From: Pegea sp. RAD2-039
Lineage: Eukaryota; Chordata; Thaliacea; Salpida; Salpidae
Assembly: GCA_034620365.1 (NCBI GenBank)
Contig: JAQGEQ010000255.1
Coordinates: 310,001-374,000 of the forward strand
Reading direction: 5' to 3'
Length of the DNA stretch: 64,000 bases
Positions 258-55,880 of this stretch are shown one piece after another (the first letter of the stretch is position 1; each line of letters starts with the position of its first letter). The translations under genes were made by a program, and so were the position numbers. Below the pieces are notes generated by a model. It saw nothing but the letters and a program-made list of their open reading frames with translations, did no database searches and was not told the origin of the DNA.

Positions 258-589
258 ATTATAACATGTGGAGATAAAAACCGAATCTTTTACGTTTCGG
301 ATTTCATTTCTTTAGATGAAGTTTTAGACGAGTTGGAACAGAAAATAAATTTGCTTACTCTTGAGGGTGAGAAGTTTCTACAAAAGTAGTTTTTAAATAT
401 TTCAGTTTAATTACATTCAACTTTTTTATAAATCAAAATCATAGAAATAAATGTTTTTAATTCTAATAAATTTTATTATTAGGAAAGGATAAAGAAAATG
501 ACTCAAAATCTTTTGTTTATGGAACTGAATTTGCTCAAGTAGGAATCTCATCAACAACTTTAAAAGTATTTTTTGAAATTTATTTTTAA
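258..589 (+). CDS. Integrin alpha-like I-domain protein, 3' end only (gene 1 of an inverted pair)
   Basis: Two exons are visible, 258-366 and 483-589, and the gene enters from the left edge. Exon 1 follows a clear acceptor (tttcag) and encodes the last strand and helix of a vWA/I domain (RIFYVSDF, ending LLTLEG). Exon 2 encodes the integrin segment just after the I domain (GTEFAQVGISSTT), the place where vertebrate alpha-I integrins read 'MSQVGFS'. Both exons match in size, phase and sequence the last two exons of the minus-strand gene at 2353-5309; the first exon is 109 bp in both. Exon 2 either ends at the in-frame TAA at 587-589 or is spliced at the GT after 565. No further propeller, leg or transmembrane exons exist before the oppositely oriented partner begins, so the product must be truncated. 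It could be a short secreted or decoy protein, or a decaying duplicate. Confidence 0.6.
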
Positions 590-2352
590 ATATAATGATG
601 TTTATCTAAACTAAACTAAAAATAAATTAGCTGTAAGTTTGTGAGTGTATGTGTGTGTCTGAGCTCTTCATCGTCAAATCCGAGCTTAAAAAGTTCAAAA
701 GGAATTCATCAAGGTTTGAACTCGATCAGATAACAGTAAGTTGAATAATTTTAACATTAAAGTTCTTTAACTTGTTGTTTTATTTGATTTCTTTTAGATT
801 TACATTTGAAATAAAGCATGAAAGTTGATACTGTAAAAGGATTTATTCTAAATTTTAATTTCTTTAACTCAAGCCCTGGTTGCTGTGGAGGTTTTTTTTG
901 AATCTACAAAGTTTCAAATAAGTTTTGAAATGTAATAAAATTCAGCAGAAAAAGATATTGTTGCATAATATTATTTTAAGTTGTAAAAAGTTGAATATAC
1001 AAACGCATAAATAAAATATCATTCAAAGATTATTTGCTGATCAAAGTTGTTTTCAAAAAATAAAAAAACTTCTTTTAAACTTTTAGCTTAAAATTTTTGA
1101 AGTTTTACTTTTTTTAAACCTCTCCAAAATTTGTTTAAAATTCAATTTTTTGTTTTAAAAATGTTTATATATTTTCTTACTAGCTACTATGAACAAGGCT
1201 TAAAAATTTAATTTATATTTTAACAAGGTAACTTTAATTTTTACTTCTTAGCTGTTATTTTGATAATTTCATCTTTTTAGATTAATATTCAATTTTAATA
1301 AATCTATTAATTTCTAAAATTATTAATATTAATCATTTCTCAATTAAATAATAAAAAGAATTTTTTATTAAAATATTGGAAAGATTTCTTAAAGCTTGAC
1401 AAAATTTCTTTCTCTTTATTAATGTTTTCAATAAACTAAATCAAATTGAAATTTTAACTTTATTTTTAGCAAAAGCATTTTCAAATTTATAAAAAAGCTA
1501 GATTTTACAATGAAAGCTTTTACTTTAAGTAGATTTAAAACATCTTTCACTACAATTGAGTTTAGATGTTCAATCTAAAGACTAAACAAAAAAGAGCTAT
1601 TTTCTTCTACTTTAGAAACTATAACAATAGGTTCCAAGTCAGTTCAGAAAAATTTGAATTTAATTTGATATATTAGCTTATAGGAAGTTTCCACAAAAAT
1701 ATATTTAGATAAATAATATTATTATCCTTTTTCTAATTCTAAATTAATAACTAGTTCTGAAAAAGCTGTAGATGAACAAAGATTCAATTTAAAAAGTAAA
1801 ACGAAAAAAGCAAAAATCTTCTAATAATTTTTTTTTGATTATATTACAACAGAATCAATCTTTTAGATTAATAATATTAATAATTTATTAAATATTTTAT
1901 TTTACAAATTATTGAATAGTGTTTATGAAGAGAAAGAAAAATTTTAAAAAGTTTTAAAATTGCTTTAAATATTAATTCATCAATTATATAATCTTTCATA
2001 GATAAAGATTTTAAATGAAATCAGAAGAATATGATATAAAATGTAACTTTAAAAAAGTTGTTTTAAACTTCCTCTAATTTCAAAATATTTGTGACAAAGA
2101 TAAAGAAAAACAAATAGTTTAAGAGACTAAATGAAAGATTTTTTGCTATTATCATTAAATTATCATATCTAAAGGTCTGTTTAATAAAATAAGTAATAGC
2201 TTGATTTAGTTTATATTCTTTTAACTAGTTAATCAAAAAGTTCACCAACCTTATGTAGAAGATGAAGTCAACATCCGGTTATCTTCTTCGATATCTTCAA
2301 GTCACACACACTCTTACACACTCACACATTTACAAACTATTTCATCTTACAA
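590..2352. other. Intergenic, between convergent integrin-like genes
   Basis: AT-rich sequence with no open frame worth calling on either strand. A GT/AC-rich patch at about 635-660 (plus) and one at about 2296-2330 (minus sense) look alike. They may be the diverged 3' flanks of the inverted duplication. Confidence 0.5.
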
Positions 2353-5309
2353 CTATAAACTAGGTTTGAAAAATAAAAATACTTTTGATGTTGTTGATGA
2401 GATTCCAAGTTGAGAAAATTCTGTTCCCAAACTTGAAGATGAAGTTTTGCTGTTTCCTATAAAAAGAAATCATAAAGATCTGGTTTTAAAGACATGATTA
2501 TTCTTTTAATGCTAAAATATAGAGTTTAATAATTTTTTTTCTATTCCTGGTTAATCATTCAAAAGGAATAAACCATGATACTTAAAGAGTTAAACTTGAT
2601 ATTTATACTTTAGTCTCTAATTGAACTGAACAAAAGTAGCAAAATACATTTATCTAAAAACAAGGAAGTTAAATGAATAAGTCTGTCAAAAAAGTTTAGT
2701 AAAGTGTTTTAGAATTTAAGTTCTATTTAACTTAAGGTCTTAGCGAACTATTTAAACATCTTATTAAACGTTTTATGTTTAACTTACAACTCAAAAATTA
2801 TGAAAATTAAATGGATCAATCTTAAAACCAAAATAAAACTTTATTACTTATAAAAACTAATAATCCTTTAAACAACATGAGTATTACAAACTCGTTTAAA
2901 CATATTTTTTGGATAAATAAGTAACTTTTTAAACATATAAAATTAAAAAAGAAACCTTCAAGACTTAATGAGATAACTTCATCTTTTAACTGATCAATAA
3001 TTGTTTCCAAATTGTTGAAATCAGAAACATAAAAAATCCGCTTTGTATCATTTTGTGCAACTATCTGAAAAAAATCAAATATTAATTATATTTTAATTTG
3101 AAAGTTTACTAAAATAGAAACGAGTCTTAATCATAAATATTTTTATTGAGGTTTCGAAATAAACAAACTTTAAGTTCTTTCTCATCTGCTTCACCGACTC
3201 CAACTGCAAATGTTGTGATTCCAAGTGATTTAAGATAGTCAGATGTTGCAGGAAGGTCTTTACGATGATTTGATCTTAAGATGATTTTACTTTAGGATAA
3301 GATTTTTCACAATTTCTTACTTACTTTCCATCAGTCAGCAAAATGAGAACTTTATTAGTAGATACAGAATTATATCTATTTGAAGATTTAAAGTCGTCAA
3401 CTGTTTTGTTTAGTGCATGAGCTGTATAAGTCGTGTATCCTTGCAGCTTTATTCCATCTAAACGTTTCTACAAAAAGTTCTTTTATTGAATATCTCTAAA
3501 GATTATTCCTCAAGTTATAACAATTACAAAATTTTAGATAAATTATAAAATTTTAGAAAATGATATCAATTAAAAACTTACATTGAAGTTAGTCAAGTTA
3601 GAAATCTGTTGTAATTTTATTTCTGTCTTCATGTAGGGCTGGTTGTTTTCGTTCCTTAATTATTAAAACTGTAAATAAATGTTTTATAGAAGCTTATACC
3701 ACCTTGGACCTTTGTAATAATGAGAATATTGTACGACTCCAATTTGAGATTTCTTGTCAAATTTATAAAATTGTGAGATTATGGCTTTTGTCCAATTTTT
3801 CACAATTATAAAGTTTTCTTTTCCAACAGAACCAGAGCCATCCAATACAAACATTATGTCCAGATCACTTTTTGAACAATCTGTACAAATATTTAACATT
3901 AAAATCGAATTAAAAGCATCTTTAATAATTCATCTTTTATTTTATAAAGATTAAGATAATTAAATTAAAATCTTTAGGTCTTATTTTAAAAAATTTAAAA
4001 AATCAATTGTCAAGTTTTTTTTTTTAATTTAAAAGCTTTAATTCGAATACTTTAGTTTTTGATAATTAATAGAATTCTAATTTCTTGATGAATGAAATTA
4101 AATTGTTTTATGCAAACCATGATATGATAAATTTAAAAATAGTTGTCACTTAAACGTGCTTTGAACTTATTATTTTTAAAACAATCTCACCGAAAATTGA
4201 TTTATCAACTTGTTGTTGCCAGGTTTTTCCATCATTGTTGCTGTTAAAACAAACTCCAGGTAGTAGATCAAATTGACTACAAAGTATCGGTGTTGTTGGT
4301 GAACAAATCTAGGAAGATATAGTTATAGAGTAAAAGTATTTTTCTTTTTCCTGATTTAATTTCTATTAAAGGAAGTTTACTTTCATCTGATTGTCTTGTG
4401 GCTTGATAACATTCAATCCGAAGTTTTCTCCTTCAACTGAATCAGGTAGTTTGGATTTGCAACTTGAAGAATTATCGATATTGAAGTTTGTTGTACATTC
4501 TAATAATCCACCAACCACTGAATATAAAATTAAATACAAAAAATACAGATTATAACAACTGATTTGTAATTTTTGTGACATTTACTAATAGTATGAAAGT
4601 AATTCCGTTAATTTAAGTAGCAATCAAGAAAATACTAAAAAAGTGACCTTGAGAAAAACCAAAAAATTATTTGCTAAAAACATTTTAAAGTACCGTTCAA
4701 TCTAACTTATTTTAACACTACTACATATACTGTCAATATTTATATATAAATGTAAAGTGTATTATTACTTTATTAATACCATTAGATATTATAAATGAAA
4801 GATGCAAGATACATTTTGTTCAAATCACTTTTAAATTTGCAGCTTAAATAGAATAAATAAACGAAAACAATAAAAAAAGTTTTATAATAATAAAATGTAT
4901 TATTTGAGAAATATATATTTCTTTATTTAATGTCTATAATCATATTTAATAATAGCTCATAATGATTAATGTTCCCACAAACCTTTTAATTCATCTTCTC
5001 CTGAACTTTTTCGTGTCTTTTTTGGTGCTCCAACCAATAGTTTACTTCAACATATAAACAAGATATTTATACTTGTTATCTATTTTACAAAAGCATCTAT
5101 TAAATAACTCACTCGTTATTGTAAAGAAAGTCGTAACCAAAATATCTTGGAGCAGTTTCGTTTGGATAAGTTTTAAAAGACTCTGAGACTGTTTCTTCTG
5201 TATAAGATTCTGGCTGAATCAATTTCGGTGAGAAACGACTTTCAATATTGAATGGATAGACTACAGATATTGTTGCAAAAAATTGCAAAAGTAACAATCG
5301 AAATTTCAT
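2353..5309 (-). CDS. Truncated integrin alpha-like protein with I (vWA) domain (gene 2 of an inverted pair)
   Basis: Ten phase-consistent exons: 5113-5309, 4983-5044, 4381-4517, 4191-4308, 3703-3880, 3582-3654, 3325-3467, 3169-3274, 2956-3064, 2353-2456 (408 aa). The order is: signal peptide (hydrophobic 1-20), first FG-GAP-like blade (YFGYDFLYNN, KLLVGAPKK), a cysteine-containing linker, then a complete I domain. All MIDAS elements are present: DGSGS in the first loop, a Thr in GYTTYTAHAL and Asp in LLTDGK. A post-I-domain hairpin follows (TEFSQLGISSTT). That is the N-terminal quarter of an alpha-I integrin. The rest of the propeller, the thigh/calf domains and the membrane anchor are absent, and there is no room for them because gene 1 converges from the left. 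The last exon may instead be spliced at 2383. The protein is likely secreted and able to bind divalent cation and ligand. Alpha-I integrins are known from tunicates and vertebrates. Confidence 0.72.
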
Positions 5310-11156: not shown

Positions 11157-11177
11157 GACACATAATTAGTTATTAAA

Positions 11178-12182
11178 ATGCTGGTGGCAGCTAACCGTTT
11201 TATATCTGCTGGAGCTAAAAATTTCCGGAACATAGCTCTTCGTTGTAACAGTACATTAGTTGTAGCAGAACATGACAATGCAAATATCAACCCAATAACT
11301 CTGAATGCTATAACTGCAGCTTCACAGATTGGAAATACAGTTACTGGCCTTGTAGTTGGATCTAATTGTTCTGAAGTTGCTAATAAATTAAGCCAAGTTG
11401 CTGGAATTTCAAAGGTTTTGGTTGCTGAAAATGAGGAATTTGTTGGAAATATGCCTGAAACTTTAGCACCAATTATAACTAATCTACAAAATGAACATAA
11501 TTTTTCTCATATAATGGCAGGAGCAAGTGCTTTCGGTAAAGGTTTATTGCCTAGGGTTGCAGCTAAGTTAGATGTTGACCCTATTAGTGATATAACTGAA
11601 GTTGTATCTAATGATACTTTTGTAAGAACAATATATGCTGGAAATGCTCTTCAAACAGTCAAAAGTAATTCATCTGTTAAAGTAATTACTGTCAGAGGCA
11701 CTTCATTTGAGGCAGCTGATATAGATGGAGGAGAAGGGTCTGTTGAAACTATTGCAGTTGGTTCTGCAAGTGATTTGTCTGTTTGGATTAGTGAAGAGCT
11801 AAGTAAAAGTGATCGACCAGAACTTACAGCTGCCCGTGTAGTTATATCTGGAGGTAGAGGCATGAAAAATGGAGATAATTTCCAGTTGTTGTATAGTCTT
11901 GCTGATAAATTAAATGCTGCCGTTGGTGCTTCCCGTGCTGCAGTAGATGCAGGGTTTGTACCTAATGATATGCAAGTTGGTCAAACTGGTAAAATTGTAG
12001 CACCTGATTTATATGTTGCTGTTGGCATATCAGGGGCTATTCAACATTTAGCTGGCATGAAAGATTCTAAGGTTATTGTTGCTATCAATAAAGATCCAGA
12101 AGCTCCCATATTTCAAGTCTCTGATCTTGGTTTAGTTGAGGATTTATTTAAAGCTGTGCCACAACTAACAGACAGTTTATAA
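11178..12182 (+). CDS. ETFA: Electron transfer flavoprotein subunit alpha, mitochondrial
   Basis: Single-exon gene, 334 aa, against 333 in human. It carries electrons from fatty-acid and amino-acid dehydrogenases to ETF-ubiquinone oxidoreductase in the mitochondrial matrix as a heterodimer with ETFB. The N-terminus ([17 protein letters not shown]) is basic and Ser-rich, consistent with a transit peptide. The C-terminal FAD-binding domain is nearly identical to the family: [74 protein letters not shown]. The start is the first ATG after a splice acceptor. First gene of a probable three-gene operon: NHP2 starts 162 bases after its stop, with an AATAAA-like signal at about 12222 in between. Confidence 0.97.
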
Positions 12183-12320
12183 ATGTGACATTTAATTGTA
12201 TAAATCTTCAATATTATTTCTAAAATAAATATGATTGCTTATGTATAAATATCAGCTGTAATTATCTTGTGAACTTAAGATATTTTTTTTAATTTTTAAA
12301 TTAAATATTGATTATTCTTC

Positions 12321-12327
12321 TTTCCAG
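12321..12327 (+). other. Probable trans-splice acceptor for NHP2
   Basis: A pyrimidine run and 'ttctttccag' lie 17 bases upstream of the NHP2 ATG and about 145 bases after the ETFA stop. In so short an intergenic space an acceptor without a visible upstream exon is best read as a spliced-leader site. Confidence 0.55.
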
Positions 12328-12344
12328 ATCGTGTAGAAATCAAA

Positions 12345-12788
12345 ATGGTTAAAAAATCAGCTAATTTAAGTGTTGCTTCTGAATCTGGTGATGGCAAAAC
12401 ATATAATGAATTGCTGAAGTTTGTCAATCCAATTGCTAAACCATTGGCTGGGAAAAAACTGACCAAAAAGTTGTTCAAGTGTGTGAAGAAAGCTTCAAAA
12501 GAAAAGTCTCTTTGTCGTGGAGTTAAAGATGTCCAGAAGAATTTGTTGAAAGGAGAAAAGGGTTTAGTTGTATTTGCTGGTGATACCCAACCAATTGAAG
12601 TTATGTGTCATCTCCCGATTATATGTGAAGATTCTAATGTGCATTACTGTTACATTCCATCAAAACATAGTCTTGGTGAAGCAATAGGTTCAACTAAGCC
12701 TACTTGCTGTGTTTTAATAAAGAAAAACAAAGCTTATGAGGAGACTTATGGAGAATGTCTATCTGGTGTTCAAGAAATTTCAACATAA
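12345..12788 (+). CDS. NHP2: H/ACA ribonucleoprotein complex subunit NHP2
   Basis: Intronless, 147 aa (human 153). An L7Ae/NHP2-family RNA-binding protein of H/ACA snoRNPs, acting in the nucleolus and Cajal bodies for pseudouridylation and, in vertebrates, in telomerase RNP. Seen: basic N-terminus, KKLTKKLFKCVKKA, SLCRGVKDVQKNLLKGEKGL, VVFAGDTQPIEVMCHLPI, CEDSNVHYCYIPSKHSLGEA and SKPT-like GSTKPTCCVLI. These cover the kink-turn-binding loop and the L7Ae core. It sits between ETFA and SRRT on the same strand with spacings of about 160-170 bases, which suggests co-transcription. Confidence 0.96.
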   Translation: MVKKSANLSVASESGDGKTYNELLKFVNPIAKPLAGKKLTKKLFKCVKKASKEKSLCRGVKDVQKNLLKGEKGLVVFAGDTQPIEVMCHLPIICEDSNVHYCYIPSKHSLGEAIGSTKPTCCVLIKKNKAYEETYGECLSGVQEIST

Positions 12789-44486: not shown

Positions 44487-51362
<6,876 letters not shown>

Positions 51363-52929: not shown

Positions 52930-53780
52930 CTTGTTTATATTTATTTATTTATTTATTACAATAAATCTGAAGGAGGGTGCCTAAAGAGAGCACCTCTCGC
53001 TAACACACATTCTCACAAATTAGATCTATTTGACGTGTAAACGAAAAAGCATATGACAATGAAGAATTGCACAGAATCATAGTATTGTAAAAGAGAAAAA
53101 TTCACAGTTTAGAAATGGCAATGTTGGCAATATTATAACAATTCAGTTTTTTTTTGAACAGCACAAGTGATTTTGACATGACAATCTCTGATGGCAGATT
53201 GCTCCATTTACTGATTGTGCGGTATGAGAAAAAACTTAATCTGGTTAACGTAGCTGGTGGAGTGGGCTTATTAAGATGTAATTTATGTCTTCTAAGTTGA
53301 TATAACTTGAGGGAGGGACTAATGGAGAAAAAGTCATCAAACTGAAGATCAATTAGGTTGTGAATAATTTTAAAAATCAGAATAAGGTCGTATTTAATTC
53401 TTCGGATTTCCAAAGTATCTAGATTGAAGAAGCTGAGACGATGCTTATAACTCTCGTATTTGATATTAAGTTTCCTGCAAACCAATCTCGTAAATGTTGC
53501 CTGAACAGATTCGATTTTTCTGATATCACCAACTTGATATGGCATCCATGCACTGACATTGCATTCAAGAATAGGGCGTATGTACAGTTTGAAAAGGTTG
53601 ACGAAAAACCATGGATCTTTAGAATTAAAAGTCTTTATGATGAGGTGCTTGATAGATTTTCCAAAGATTCTGGAATAACTCTACTCAAACGTCGCTTCAG
53701 CATTTATATGCTGGACAGTAAGTCAGAGCAATTATACGGCTGGGGTCGTACAACTAACAAGCGCAACCAATGTCCTTAAA
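52930..53780 (-). mobile_element. LINE (Jockey/CR1-like), 5'-truncated, minus orientation
   Basis: On the minus strand an open segment (53102-53545, 147 codons) encodes the C-terminal end of a non-LTR retrotransposon polyprotein (MPYQVGDIRKIESVQ, RRIKYDLILIFKIIHNLID, YRTISKWSNLP). Downstream is the common 3' end (ttagcgagaggtgctctc) and an AAAT tail at about 52938-52960. Homology to the copy at 54700-55880 continues upstream to about 53780 with disruptions. Non-functional copy. Confidence 0.85.
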
Positions 53781-54699: not shown

Positions 54700-55880
54700 C
54701 TAATTGTTCATTTTTTTATCTACTCCTGGTTAAATCACCAGTGGTGTTCCTCCGGGTTCTGTTCTGGGTCCCCTTCTCTTTTTAACTTTCATCGAAGACC
54801 TCATCAGAAGACTAGTAGCAGTAAATGATGCCAGAGTGTTTGTGTATGCAGATTATATCAATCTATTATCTTGTAATCCTTCAAAACTTCAAACTGCACT
54901 ACACACTGTATAAGACTGGTATACGAATTTGCAGCTCAGAATCCAGCCCATAAAGTCTTAACTTATAACTTTTTCTCGTAAATCAGCGGTAAATTCCTTG
55001 AACCAATACTCCATCAATAGATTTATTATTCAACGTATATTTTTTTCGGTCCTAGACCTTGGCATTACTTTATCATCTGACTTTAAATGGCGCAATTATG
55101 TTTCCAAAATCTTTGAAAAATCAATCAACCTTGTTTTCCTTATTATAAAGACATTTAATTCTAAGAACCCATGATTTTTATCAATCTTTTCAAATTGTAC
55201 GTACGTCCAATTTTTGAATACAATGTCAGTGCATGGATGCCATATCAAGTTAGTGATATCAAAACAATTGAATCTGTTCAGGCAACATTTGCGAGATTAT
55301 TATGCAGAAAACTTAATATTAAATATGATAGTTATAAACACTGTCTCCGTTTCTTCAATTTAGATACTTTGGAAATTCGAAGGATTAAATGCGACTTAAT
55401 TCTTGTTTTTAAAATTATCCACAATTTAATTGACATTCAGTTTGATGATTTCTTTTCTATTAGTCCTTCGTTCAAGTTATATCAGCTCAGACGACACATA
55501 TTACATCTTAATAAGCCCATATCACCTGGTACATTGGTCAGAGCAAATTTGTTCTTATACCGCACAAATAGTACATGGAACCAGCTGCCATCAGATATTG
55601 CCATGTCGAAGTCACTTGCGTTGTTCAAGCAGAAGTTGAACCGTTATAATATTGCTAACATTGTCATTTTTAAACTGATTTTTTCTCTTTCTTATATTAT
55701 TAACATTCCATGTAATTGTTCACTGTTATATGCTTTGAGGACTACTGAAATGCAATGTGTTACATCTTTTGCTTTCTATATTTTTGACTAAATAGATGTT
55801 ACTGATAAGAATGTGTGTTAGCGAGAGGTGCTCTCTTCAGGTACCCTCCTTCGCATTTATTGAAATAAATATAAATGTTG
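54700..55880 (+). mobile_element. LINE (Jockey/CR1-like) with degenerate reverse transcriptase
   Basis: Contains the reverse transcriptase motif GVPPGSVLGPLLF near 54745 and a YADD-box position mutated to YADY near 54850, with stops and frameshifts between. Then comes a 206-codon open segment (55171-55791) covering the conserved C-terminus (LFKLYVRPIFEYNVSAWMPY), and the family 3' terminus 'gtgtgttagcgagaggtgct' at 55812-55831. The active-site change and stops indicate an inactive copy. Confidence 0.88.

Follow-up and report, generated by a model that had tools for sequence, protein, structure and literature searches.

Short alpha-I integrin genes of the salp Pegea sp. form a multi-copy family that ends behind the I domain and probably encodes secreted heads

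The two integrin-like genes that face each other at the left end of the window (the whole stretch of 64,000 nucleotides analysed here, from Pegea sp. RAD2-039) belong to a multi-copy family that, on balance, we take to encode short integrin heads, likely secreted and MIDAS-dependent and with diversified loops, which would serve as soluble recognition proteins or decoys. The gene structure of this family, its shared end point, the intactness of its members and the location of their variation are described below from direct observation. That the two window genes are more than a chance resemblance is confirmed by Pfam VWA matches in both deduced proteins (E 6.3e-37 and 6.5e-35) and by the presence of 15 full-length copies on C58, the contig carrying both genes.

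The minus-strand gene, a member of subfamily B, comprises ten exons between window positions 5309 and 2383, with GT-AG borders in 9/9 introns and a frame that opens with the ATG at 5309 and stays uninterrupted until the stop codon, whose last base is 2353. Exon 1 (5113..5309, minus strand, as are all the following) contains the ATG, a signal peptide recognised by eye and the start of blade 1, which continues in exon 2 (4983..5044) with the motif KLLVGAPK; exon 3 (4381..4517), with two cysteines, leads from blade 1 to blade 2, and exon 4 (4191..4308), with three cysteines (ICSPTTPILCSQFDLLPGVC), belongs to blade 2. The I domain starts in exon 5 (3703..3880), with the MIDAS motif DGSGS and loop L1, and continues in exon 6 (3582..3654), which holds the strand past the variable hairpin (L2) and forms a single exon with exon 5 in the A copies. 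Exon 7 (3325..3467) contributes the MIDAS Thr (loop L3) and LLTDG, exon 8 (3169..3274) loop L4 and TTFAVGVG, and exon 9 (2956..3064) the end of the domain with the intrinsic-ligand Glu (LSLEG); the original prediction had read the MIDAS of this gene (DGSGS, Thr, LLTDGK) correctly. The last exon (2353..2456) encodes a blade-3 linker (GTEFSQLGISSTTSK), followed by a donor-like GT at 2382, the tail VFLFFKPSL and the stop. Behind it lies a TG-rich region (2253..2352, limits approximate), presumed to be the 3' UTR and 3' end, which is conserved among the four B copies until about 130 nt beyond the donor-like GT.

Residues 62-396 of the deduced protein match residues 24-340 of integrin alpha-X in a single continuous alignment (E 1.5e-26), showing that the proteins contain blades 1 and 2 and not the first blade only, as had been proposed. 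With its hydrophobic N-terminus and short tail, both judged by eye, the predicted product would be a protein of about 400 residues with signal peptide, blades 1-2 and I domain, and without a membrane anchor.

The left gene, from subfamily A, was expected to enter the window from the left, and its remaining seven exons were indeed found at C58:307961-309986, outside the window, so that the gene is whole. It has nine exons, GT-AG borders in 8/8 introns and 411 residues without a frame break. Its exon 8 (258..366, plus strand) encodes the end of the I domain, with LEG, and its last exon (483..589, plus strand; GTEFAQVGISSTTLK) runs through 483-565 to a donor-like GT at 566, the tail VFFEIYF and a stop; an AATAAA-like signal and a GT-rich block follow on the same strand (618..670, limits approximate). 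The penultimate exon measures 109 nt in both genes, and the last exon 83 nt in the left gene versus 74 nt in the minus-strand gene. Both genes thus stop directly past the I domain, at positions that had been predicted almost to the base, and their stops lie 1763 nt apart. The sequence reported as a shared GISSTT hairpin is shared, although what it reflects is homologous last exons in opposite orientation (53 nt, 88.7% match). RNA families gave no match in the window at the gathering score, and a search by mitochondrial COX1 to place the organism had no match either. Likewise, what had been described as an inverted gene pair is a junction within the 15-copy family on C58.

These 15 copies have one architecture and fall into subfamilies A (11 copies) and B (four copies), with one additional fragment at C58:262212-262589. 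Six cysteines are invariant in 14/14 intact C58 copies, and the MIDAS residues DxSxS and Asp are present in 14/14 and the Thr in 13/14, being Ser in A_390246. The intrinsic-ligand Glu of LEG occurs in 14/14 intact copies and also in three more copies, on contigs C21, C113 and C132, which end at the same exon border as the C58 family and have different tails. These three and the 15 on C58 make up the 18 copies whose last exon was read; outside this count stand C35, where I-domain exons are present, and C245, C42, C237, C141, C236 and C57.

A longer alpha-I integrin gene lies on C215 and continues past the I domain into blades 3-7. Its homologous exon has the same phase and ends at a GT, behind which come SAVGSFDNTG and the FG-GAP blades. 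At the splice site used by the long gene, the short ones read on into a variable tail and reach a stop 1-14 codons beyond the GT. A 5' splice-site-like AAAAGTATTT is found in the last codons of 15/15 C58 copies, the GT is retained in 18/18, and the residues behind AAAAGTATTT vary between copies. In a midpoint-rooted tree, in which few forks are supported, C215 falls outside the group of short copies.

In all 11 A copies the gene is followed by a hexamer (AATAAA, AATAAG or ATTAAA) and by a GT-rich block. The strict criterion for such a block fails in all four B copies, of which a single one contains a hexamer, and this lies beyond the block. Behind the stop, the B copies show the conservation level of exons and not that of introns 2, 4 and 9. 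Within 200 kb, 11/13 GT-rich clusters lie at ends of short-integrin genes and 2/13 elsewhere. The block is therefore peculiar to this family, which rules it out as a genome-wide 3'-end signal and, together with the result for the B copies, counts against short heads.

Differences between copies are not evenly spread. Residue variation in the MIDAS-face loops versus other positions was 0.244 versus 0.100 in A and 0.270 versus 0.056 in B, for loop limits drawn with the alignment already seen; the mask shifted along the domain equalled the loop excess in 3 (A) and 4 (B) of 204 shifts. We also used 17 positions set by the contacts of human CR3 with iC3b given in PMC9005620 (residues 142-147, 178-179, 205-209, 244-246 and 276), of which three segments are also named in PMC5802769. 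At these positions variation was 0.288 versus 0.114 in A (4/203 shifts) and 0.275 versus 0.097 in B (12/203 shifts); the differences between copies concentrate at the positions that in human CR3 contact iC3b. The blade part of subfamily A is also variable (0.168). Among the regions computed, which exclude 'rest', 'linker2' and one loop, loop L4 is the only one where pN is above pS in A as well as in B; in other loops, some of them among the variable ones, synonymous change is elevated too. Simple positive selection in the loops is not supported by these figures, and the elevated synonymous change means that gene conversion, exchanging blocks between copies, may account for part of the pattern.

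The original prediction had set a selected short protein against a decayed tandem duplicate. That these genes are functionless, decaying duplicates of integrin genes now seems very improbable, even if a donor site has been lost from one C58 copy (A_263980), a fragment exists and pooled pN/pS reaches 0.65 within A and 0.66 within B. The damage to frames or splice sites that a pseudogene array would show is confined to 1/15 copies; intron borders and open frame are kept in the other 14, and 115/116 borders of the inner introns are intact. Between A and B, dN is 0.42 and dS 1.25 (dN/dS ~0.34), and a neutral simulation with 0.2 substitutions per site left open frames in 0/5000 cases. Because 14/15 copies are intact, a decayed pair is rejected, and the selected short protein stood up to the comparison.

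It also appears unlikely that transcripts splice from the conserved terminal GT to an exon farther downstream, which would encode a tail, an anchor or a common constant part, the apparent stop being intronic. The constancy of AAAAGTATTT on C58 and of the GT in C21, C113 and C132, with no conservation of the codons behind, would suit a donor still in use, which counts against short heads, and C215 uses exactly this border as donor; besides, splicing might be enhanced by a TG-rich block that follows a donor. To our knowledge, moreover, no stable fold is known for two propeller blades alone, which counts against short heads as well. Yet the missing exons were not found elsewhere on C58. FG-GAP (blades 3-7) had no match there at E 0.001, and tblastn of the C215 blades 3-7 at E 0.05, over 38 loci including C58:235001-435000, none on C58, C21, C113 or C132; blades 3-7 were found behind none of the 18 short copies. 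The leg-domain model Integrin_A_Ig_1 matched nothing on C58 at E 0.001 and had matches only on C21 and C6, although it also missed C215, whose leg was seen by eye only. Furthermore, about 100 nt past the stop are as conserved as exons among the B copies, and after the first 130-200 nt the four share nothing in 2.5 kb, save 38 nt that match in two copies. Secreted structural proteins of tunic, house or another matrix, with an I domain that serves adhesion in general, would fit tandem gene amplification, as abundant matrix proteins do, and VWA proteins occur in tunicate matrices, for instance oikosin 35 of Oikopleura as described in PMC3390340. Such a role does not predict variation on the MIDAS face, and the Pfam search revealed no further matrix domain in either window protein; we consider it improbable.

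We thus favour soluble, diversified, MIDAS-dependent binding proteins that may act in immunity or self-recognition. Most likely they have a single origin, in an alpha-I integrin gene whose end shifted to the exon following the I domain. With the 5' splice site of this exon read through, the ancestral short gene would have had its stop and 3' end within what had been an intron, the exons behind the I-domain end would have been lost, and the family would then have expanded via tandem and inverted duplication. From the genes we infer transcription, secretion, a ligand and a role: the proteins would most likely be secreted and bind their ligand through the I-domain metal ion, with MIDAS-face loops that differ per copy, and might act in soluble recognition or as decoys for what full-length alpha-I integrins bind, with C3 fragments of complement as the first candidate. 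A bolder and rather doubtful proposal is that the head of a complement-receptor integrin became a tunicate multigene family of soluble recognition proteins, in which selection and gene conversion focus diversity on the C3-contact loops; the products might be opsonin receptors, decoys or self/non-self labels, and the conserved donor might permit cis or trans splicing to other tails.

We found no description of a family of short soluble integrin heads in open-licence PMC papers. If correct, our interpretation would imply a new route from an adhesion receptor to soluble molecules of recognition, would have consequences for the way tunicates discriminate self from non-self, and would mean that two propeller blades and an I domain need no beta subunit to work.

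The short heads share with alpha-I integrin alpha subunits (Ciona, Halocynthia; vertebrate alpha-X and alpha-M) the order of signal peptide, blades 1-2 and I domain, which lies between blades 2 and 3 and agrees with the alpha-X alignment, as well as the MIDAS, the intrinsic-ligand Glu and a counterpart of the linker EMAQEGFS. They lack blades 3-7, leg, transmembrane and cytoplasmic parts and do not have the seven-bladed propeller with Ca-binding FG-GAP repeats, whereas Ciona alpha chains have a well-defined transmembrane domain according to PMC1145181. Known tunicate alpha-I integrins are described in PMC5465252 as membrane receptors, those of blood cells being proposed complement receptors. 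Soluble receptors made by intronic polyadenylation, such as sFlt1 as presented in PMC5928244 and PMC5610261, likewise arise when a terminal exon extends beyond a 5' splice site into intron sequence, which yields a shortened, secreted product ending in a new tail, and comparison with the C215 border places the last exon of the short genes past the homologous splice site up to a stop. Unlike these, the short heads are a gene family of their own, with downstream exons gone and no long-form exons found on C58. In the I domain of CR3 (CD11b/CD18), the iC3b contacts listed in PMC9005620 coincide with the variable positions of the short heads. CR3 is a membrane heterodimer, unlike the predicted short heads. 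Ciona also possesses vCRL1, a variable complement-receptor-like protein made of CCP modules and not related to integrins. Cited in PMC5465252, it offers a tunicate example of a variable protein tied to self-recognition.

The minus-strand gene of the window comprises ten exons running from 5309 to 2383, with its stop at 2353, and the plus-strand gene enters from the left edge, so that only its final two exons, at 258-366 and 483-565, lie inside the window, followed by a stop at 589. Both frames are open, all introns are GT-AG, the predicted products have 408 (minus) and 411 (plus) residues, and VWA is the sole confident Pfam match in either. In a comparison with solved structures, residues 62-396 of the minus-strand product gave a single continuous alignment with residues 24-340 of integrin alpha-X, spanning blades 1 and 2, the I domain and the beginning of the linker toward blade 3. 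Exon models, frames, introns and matches thus bear out the two facing truncated alpha-I integrin genes of the original prediction, except that the N-terminal part holds two blades, not one.

These genes are members of a family and not, as had been proposed, a pair. The genome (105.7 Mb in 387 contigs) was searched, and tblastn of the exons against C58:235001-435000, on the contig containing the window (C58:310001-374000), retrieved 15 full-length copies plus one fragment (262212-262589). Eleven copies, with nine exons each, form subfamily A, and four, with ten, form subfamily B, whose additional intron interrupts the I domain. A head-to-tail row of seven A copies extends from 276654 to 307961 or just before, the most regular of them ca. 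5.1 kb apart; the plus-strand gene is the final member of this row, which the minus-strand gene, a B copy, faces. A second cluster occurs at 387-416 kb, mostly on the opposite strand. Inner introns are all GT-AG and the frame is kept in 14 of the 15 copies, the A copy A_263980 having lost the donor after exon 2. The two clusters (262-310 kb and 387-416 kb) flank ca. 70 kb with largely mirrored strands, and the 3' ends of A_263980 and of another A copy, A_390246, are nearly identical, suggesting that most of the window is surrounded by a large inverted duplication. Genome-wide, a protein search gave at least 117 matches (a lower bound, with 105 of 140 candidates scored), those listed beyond C58 including contigs C132, C113, C245, C35, C21, C141, C237, C42, C236 and C57; of four places read, those on C21, C113 and C132 have the complete exon set and that on C35 I-domain exons only. 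Upstream of the ATG of the B copies, by ca. 10 nt, there is a short conserved TTTTGTCAG resembling an acceptor for trans-splicing, a process that occurs in tunicates.

Each of the 15 C58 copies ends in TTxK followed by GTATTT (compared as DNA for the broken A_263980), with a stop 4-14 codons further and differing tails (VFFI, VFFEIYF, VFNFCLILHKIFVM, VFLFFKPSL and others); the copies on C21, C113 and C132 share this end position, each with its own tail. The donor-like GT at this border (window 566 and 2382, plus 16 other copies) is kept in 18 of 18 copies read, and the codons that follow are not conserved. Contig C215 carries a longer alpha-I integrin gene, in which the homologous exon has a phase 0 end directly ahead of a GT, and SAVGSFDNTGALFTY and FG-GAP blades follow; its leg region was recognised by eye only, and the Integrin_A_Ig_1 model matches on C21 and C6 with no match on C215. 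The FG-GAP model matches on C21, C6, C19, C215 and C284 and has none on C58. Likewise, tblastn with the C215 blades recovers, besides C215, the integrins of C21 and C6, with no match on C58, C21:2226-2233k or the C113, C132 and C35 stretches. Similarity among the four B copies disappears 130-200 nt past the border, save for one 38-nt match. Taken together, the C215 exon border, the lack of blades behind the short genes and this loss of similarity indicate, at the sequence level, that the short genes run past a former 5' splice site to a stop.

Several signals favour a transcript end shortly behind the border. AATAAA, AATAAG or ATTAAA occurs 52-76 nt behind it, and a GT-rich block 68-92 nt behind it, in all 11 A copies; in the B copies, the stretch behind the stop is as conserved as the exons whereas introns 2, 4 and 9 cannot be aligned, although introns 1, 3 and 8 are likewise well conserved, so that this contrast is not uniform. 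Against such an end, the GT-rich block is family-specific rather than a general signal (of the 13 clusters on the two strands of 200 kb, 11 are at family ends), none of the four B copies passes the strict test for it, and just one of the four has a hexamer, located beyond the block. The conserved donor-like GT with its unconserved following codons also counts against it.

Subfamilies A and B differ by dN 0.42 and dS 1.25, with pooled pN/pS of 0.65 within A and 0.66 within B, and dS between the left gene and other A copies is ca. 0.4; in neutral simulations at 0.05, 0.1 and 0.2 substitutions per site, 171, 12 and 0 of 5000 frames, respectively, stayed open. The 14 intact C58 copies all retain DxSxS, the MIDAS Asp, the Glu of LEG and six invariant cysteines, and 13 of them the MIDAS Thr. 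Midpoint rooting of a tree built from 19 I domains separates the C215 gene from the short copies on C21, C113, C132 and C58, which fall together, with A and B each forming one group. The simplest interpretation is that the short form arose once, but this is not proven, because a single inner branch exceeds both support limits and the branch leading to C215 is very long.

On C215, the FG-GAP matches form two mirror-image sets of equal score beside VWA matches (C215:6001-14000 and C215:22789-27350), and thus two alpha-I integrin genes in inverted arrangement. Two very similar integrin alpha genes without an I domain, on C21 at 1470k and 1483k, each consist of one open frame, 1113 and 1068 residues long; the alpha-I genes of the same genome have many introns. 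In the window, an intronless electron-transfer flavoprotein alpha gene (Pfam; 11166-12785, plus strand) is followed after ca. 130 nt by a short frame, NHP2-like, and next by SRRT/ARS2-like ones, up to ca. 16247; together they are possibly an operon. A long Gln/Asn/Pro-rich reading frame with repeated SPRNQQQP units lies at 46670-47647 (minus strand), and two similar opposed frames, 53105-53680 (minus) and 55165-55788 (plus), resemble by eye the terminal part of a reverse transcriptase gene from a retroelement. At C14:74494-74718 there is a GH6 exon (E 1.2e-4, above the cut-off of Pfam) that matches what is expected of the GH6 portion of cellulose synthase in tunicates. Together with the reported distribution of alpha-I integrins, this exon makes a tunicate source likely; a mitochondrial COX1 search gave no match. 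In a different phylum, such a family would be still more unexpected.

Mean pairwise residue difference is 0.244 in four MIDAS-face loops vs 0.100 in the rest of the I domain in A, and 0.270 vs 0.056 in B. The loop limits were set after the alignment had been seen, and shifted masks equal the excess in 3 (A) and 4 (B) of 204 shifts, figures that are indications and not probabilities because the copies are few and related. The test was repeated with just the 17 CR3-iC3b contact positions, placed by alpha-M numbering, which gave, again as indications only, 0.288 vs 0.114 in A (reached by 4 of 203 shifts and 4 of 10000 random sets) and 0.275 vs 0.097 in B (12 of 203 and 63 of 10000). Synonymous change is raised too in some loops, suggesting that blocks were exchanged between copies, and the blade part of A is variable as well (0.168).

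The short heads would be secreted as monomers or oligomers, the I-domain metal ion of each binding a carboxylate of a ligand through contact loops individual to each copy; that they keep the intrinsic-ligand Glu while lacking a frame that bears a beta subunit could mean that they touch a beta subunit. Sections 3 and 5 of PMC4237329 record alpha-I integrins in tunicates and vertebrates and not in lancelets or echinoderms. Since the full-length relatives that tunicate blood cells carry have been proposed as complement receptors, according to an excerpt of PMC5465252, soluble heads could act as competitors for C3 fragments, label particles or join in self-recognition. As far as the excerpt of PMC9005620 goes, the CR3-iC3b interface consists of residues 142-147, 178-179, 205-209, 244-246 and 276, the same places as the variable MIDAS-face loops of this family. 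The short genes also have the same build as soluble receptors produced by intronic polyadenylation, with the difference that here it is fixed as genes.
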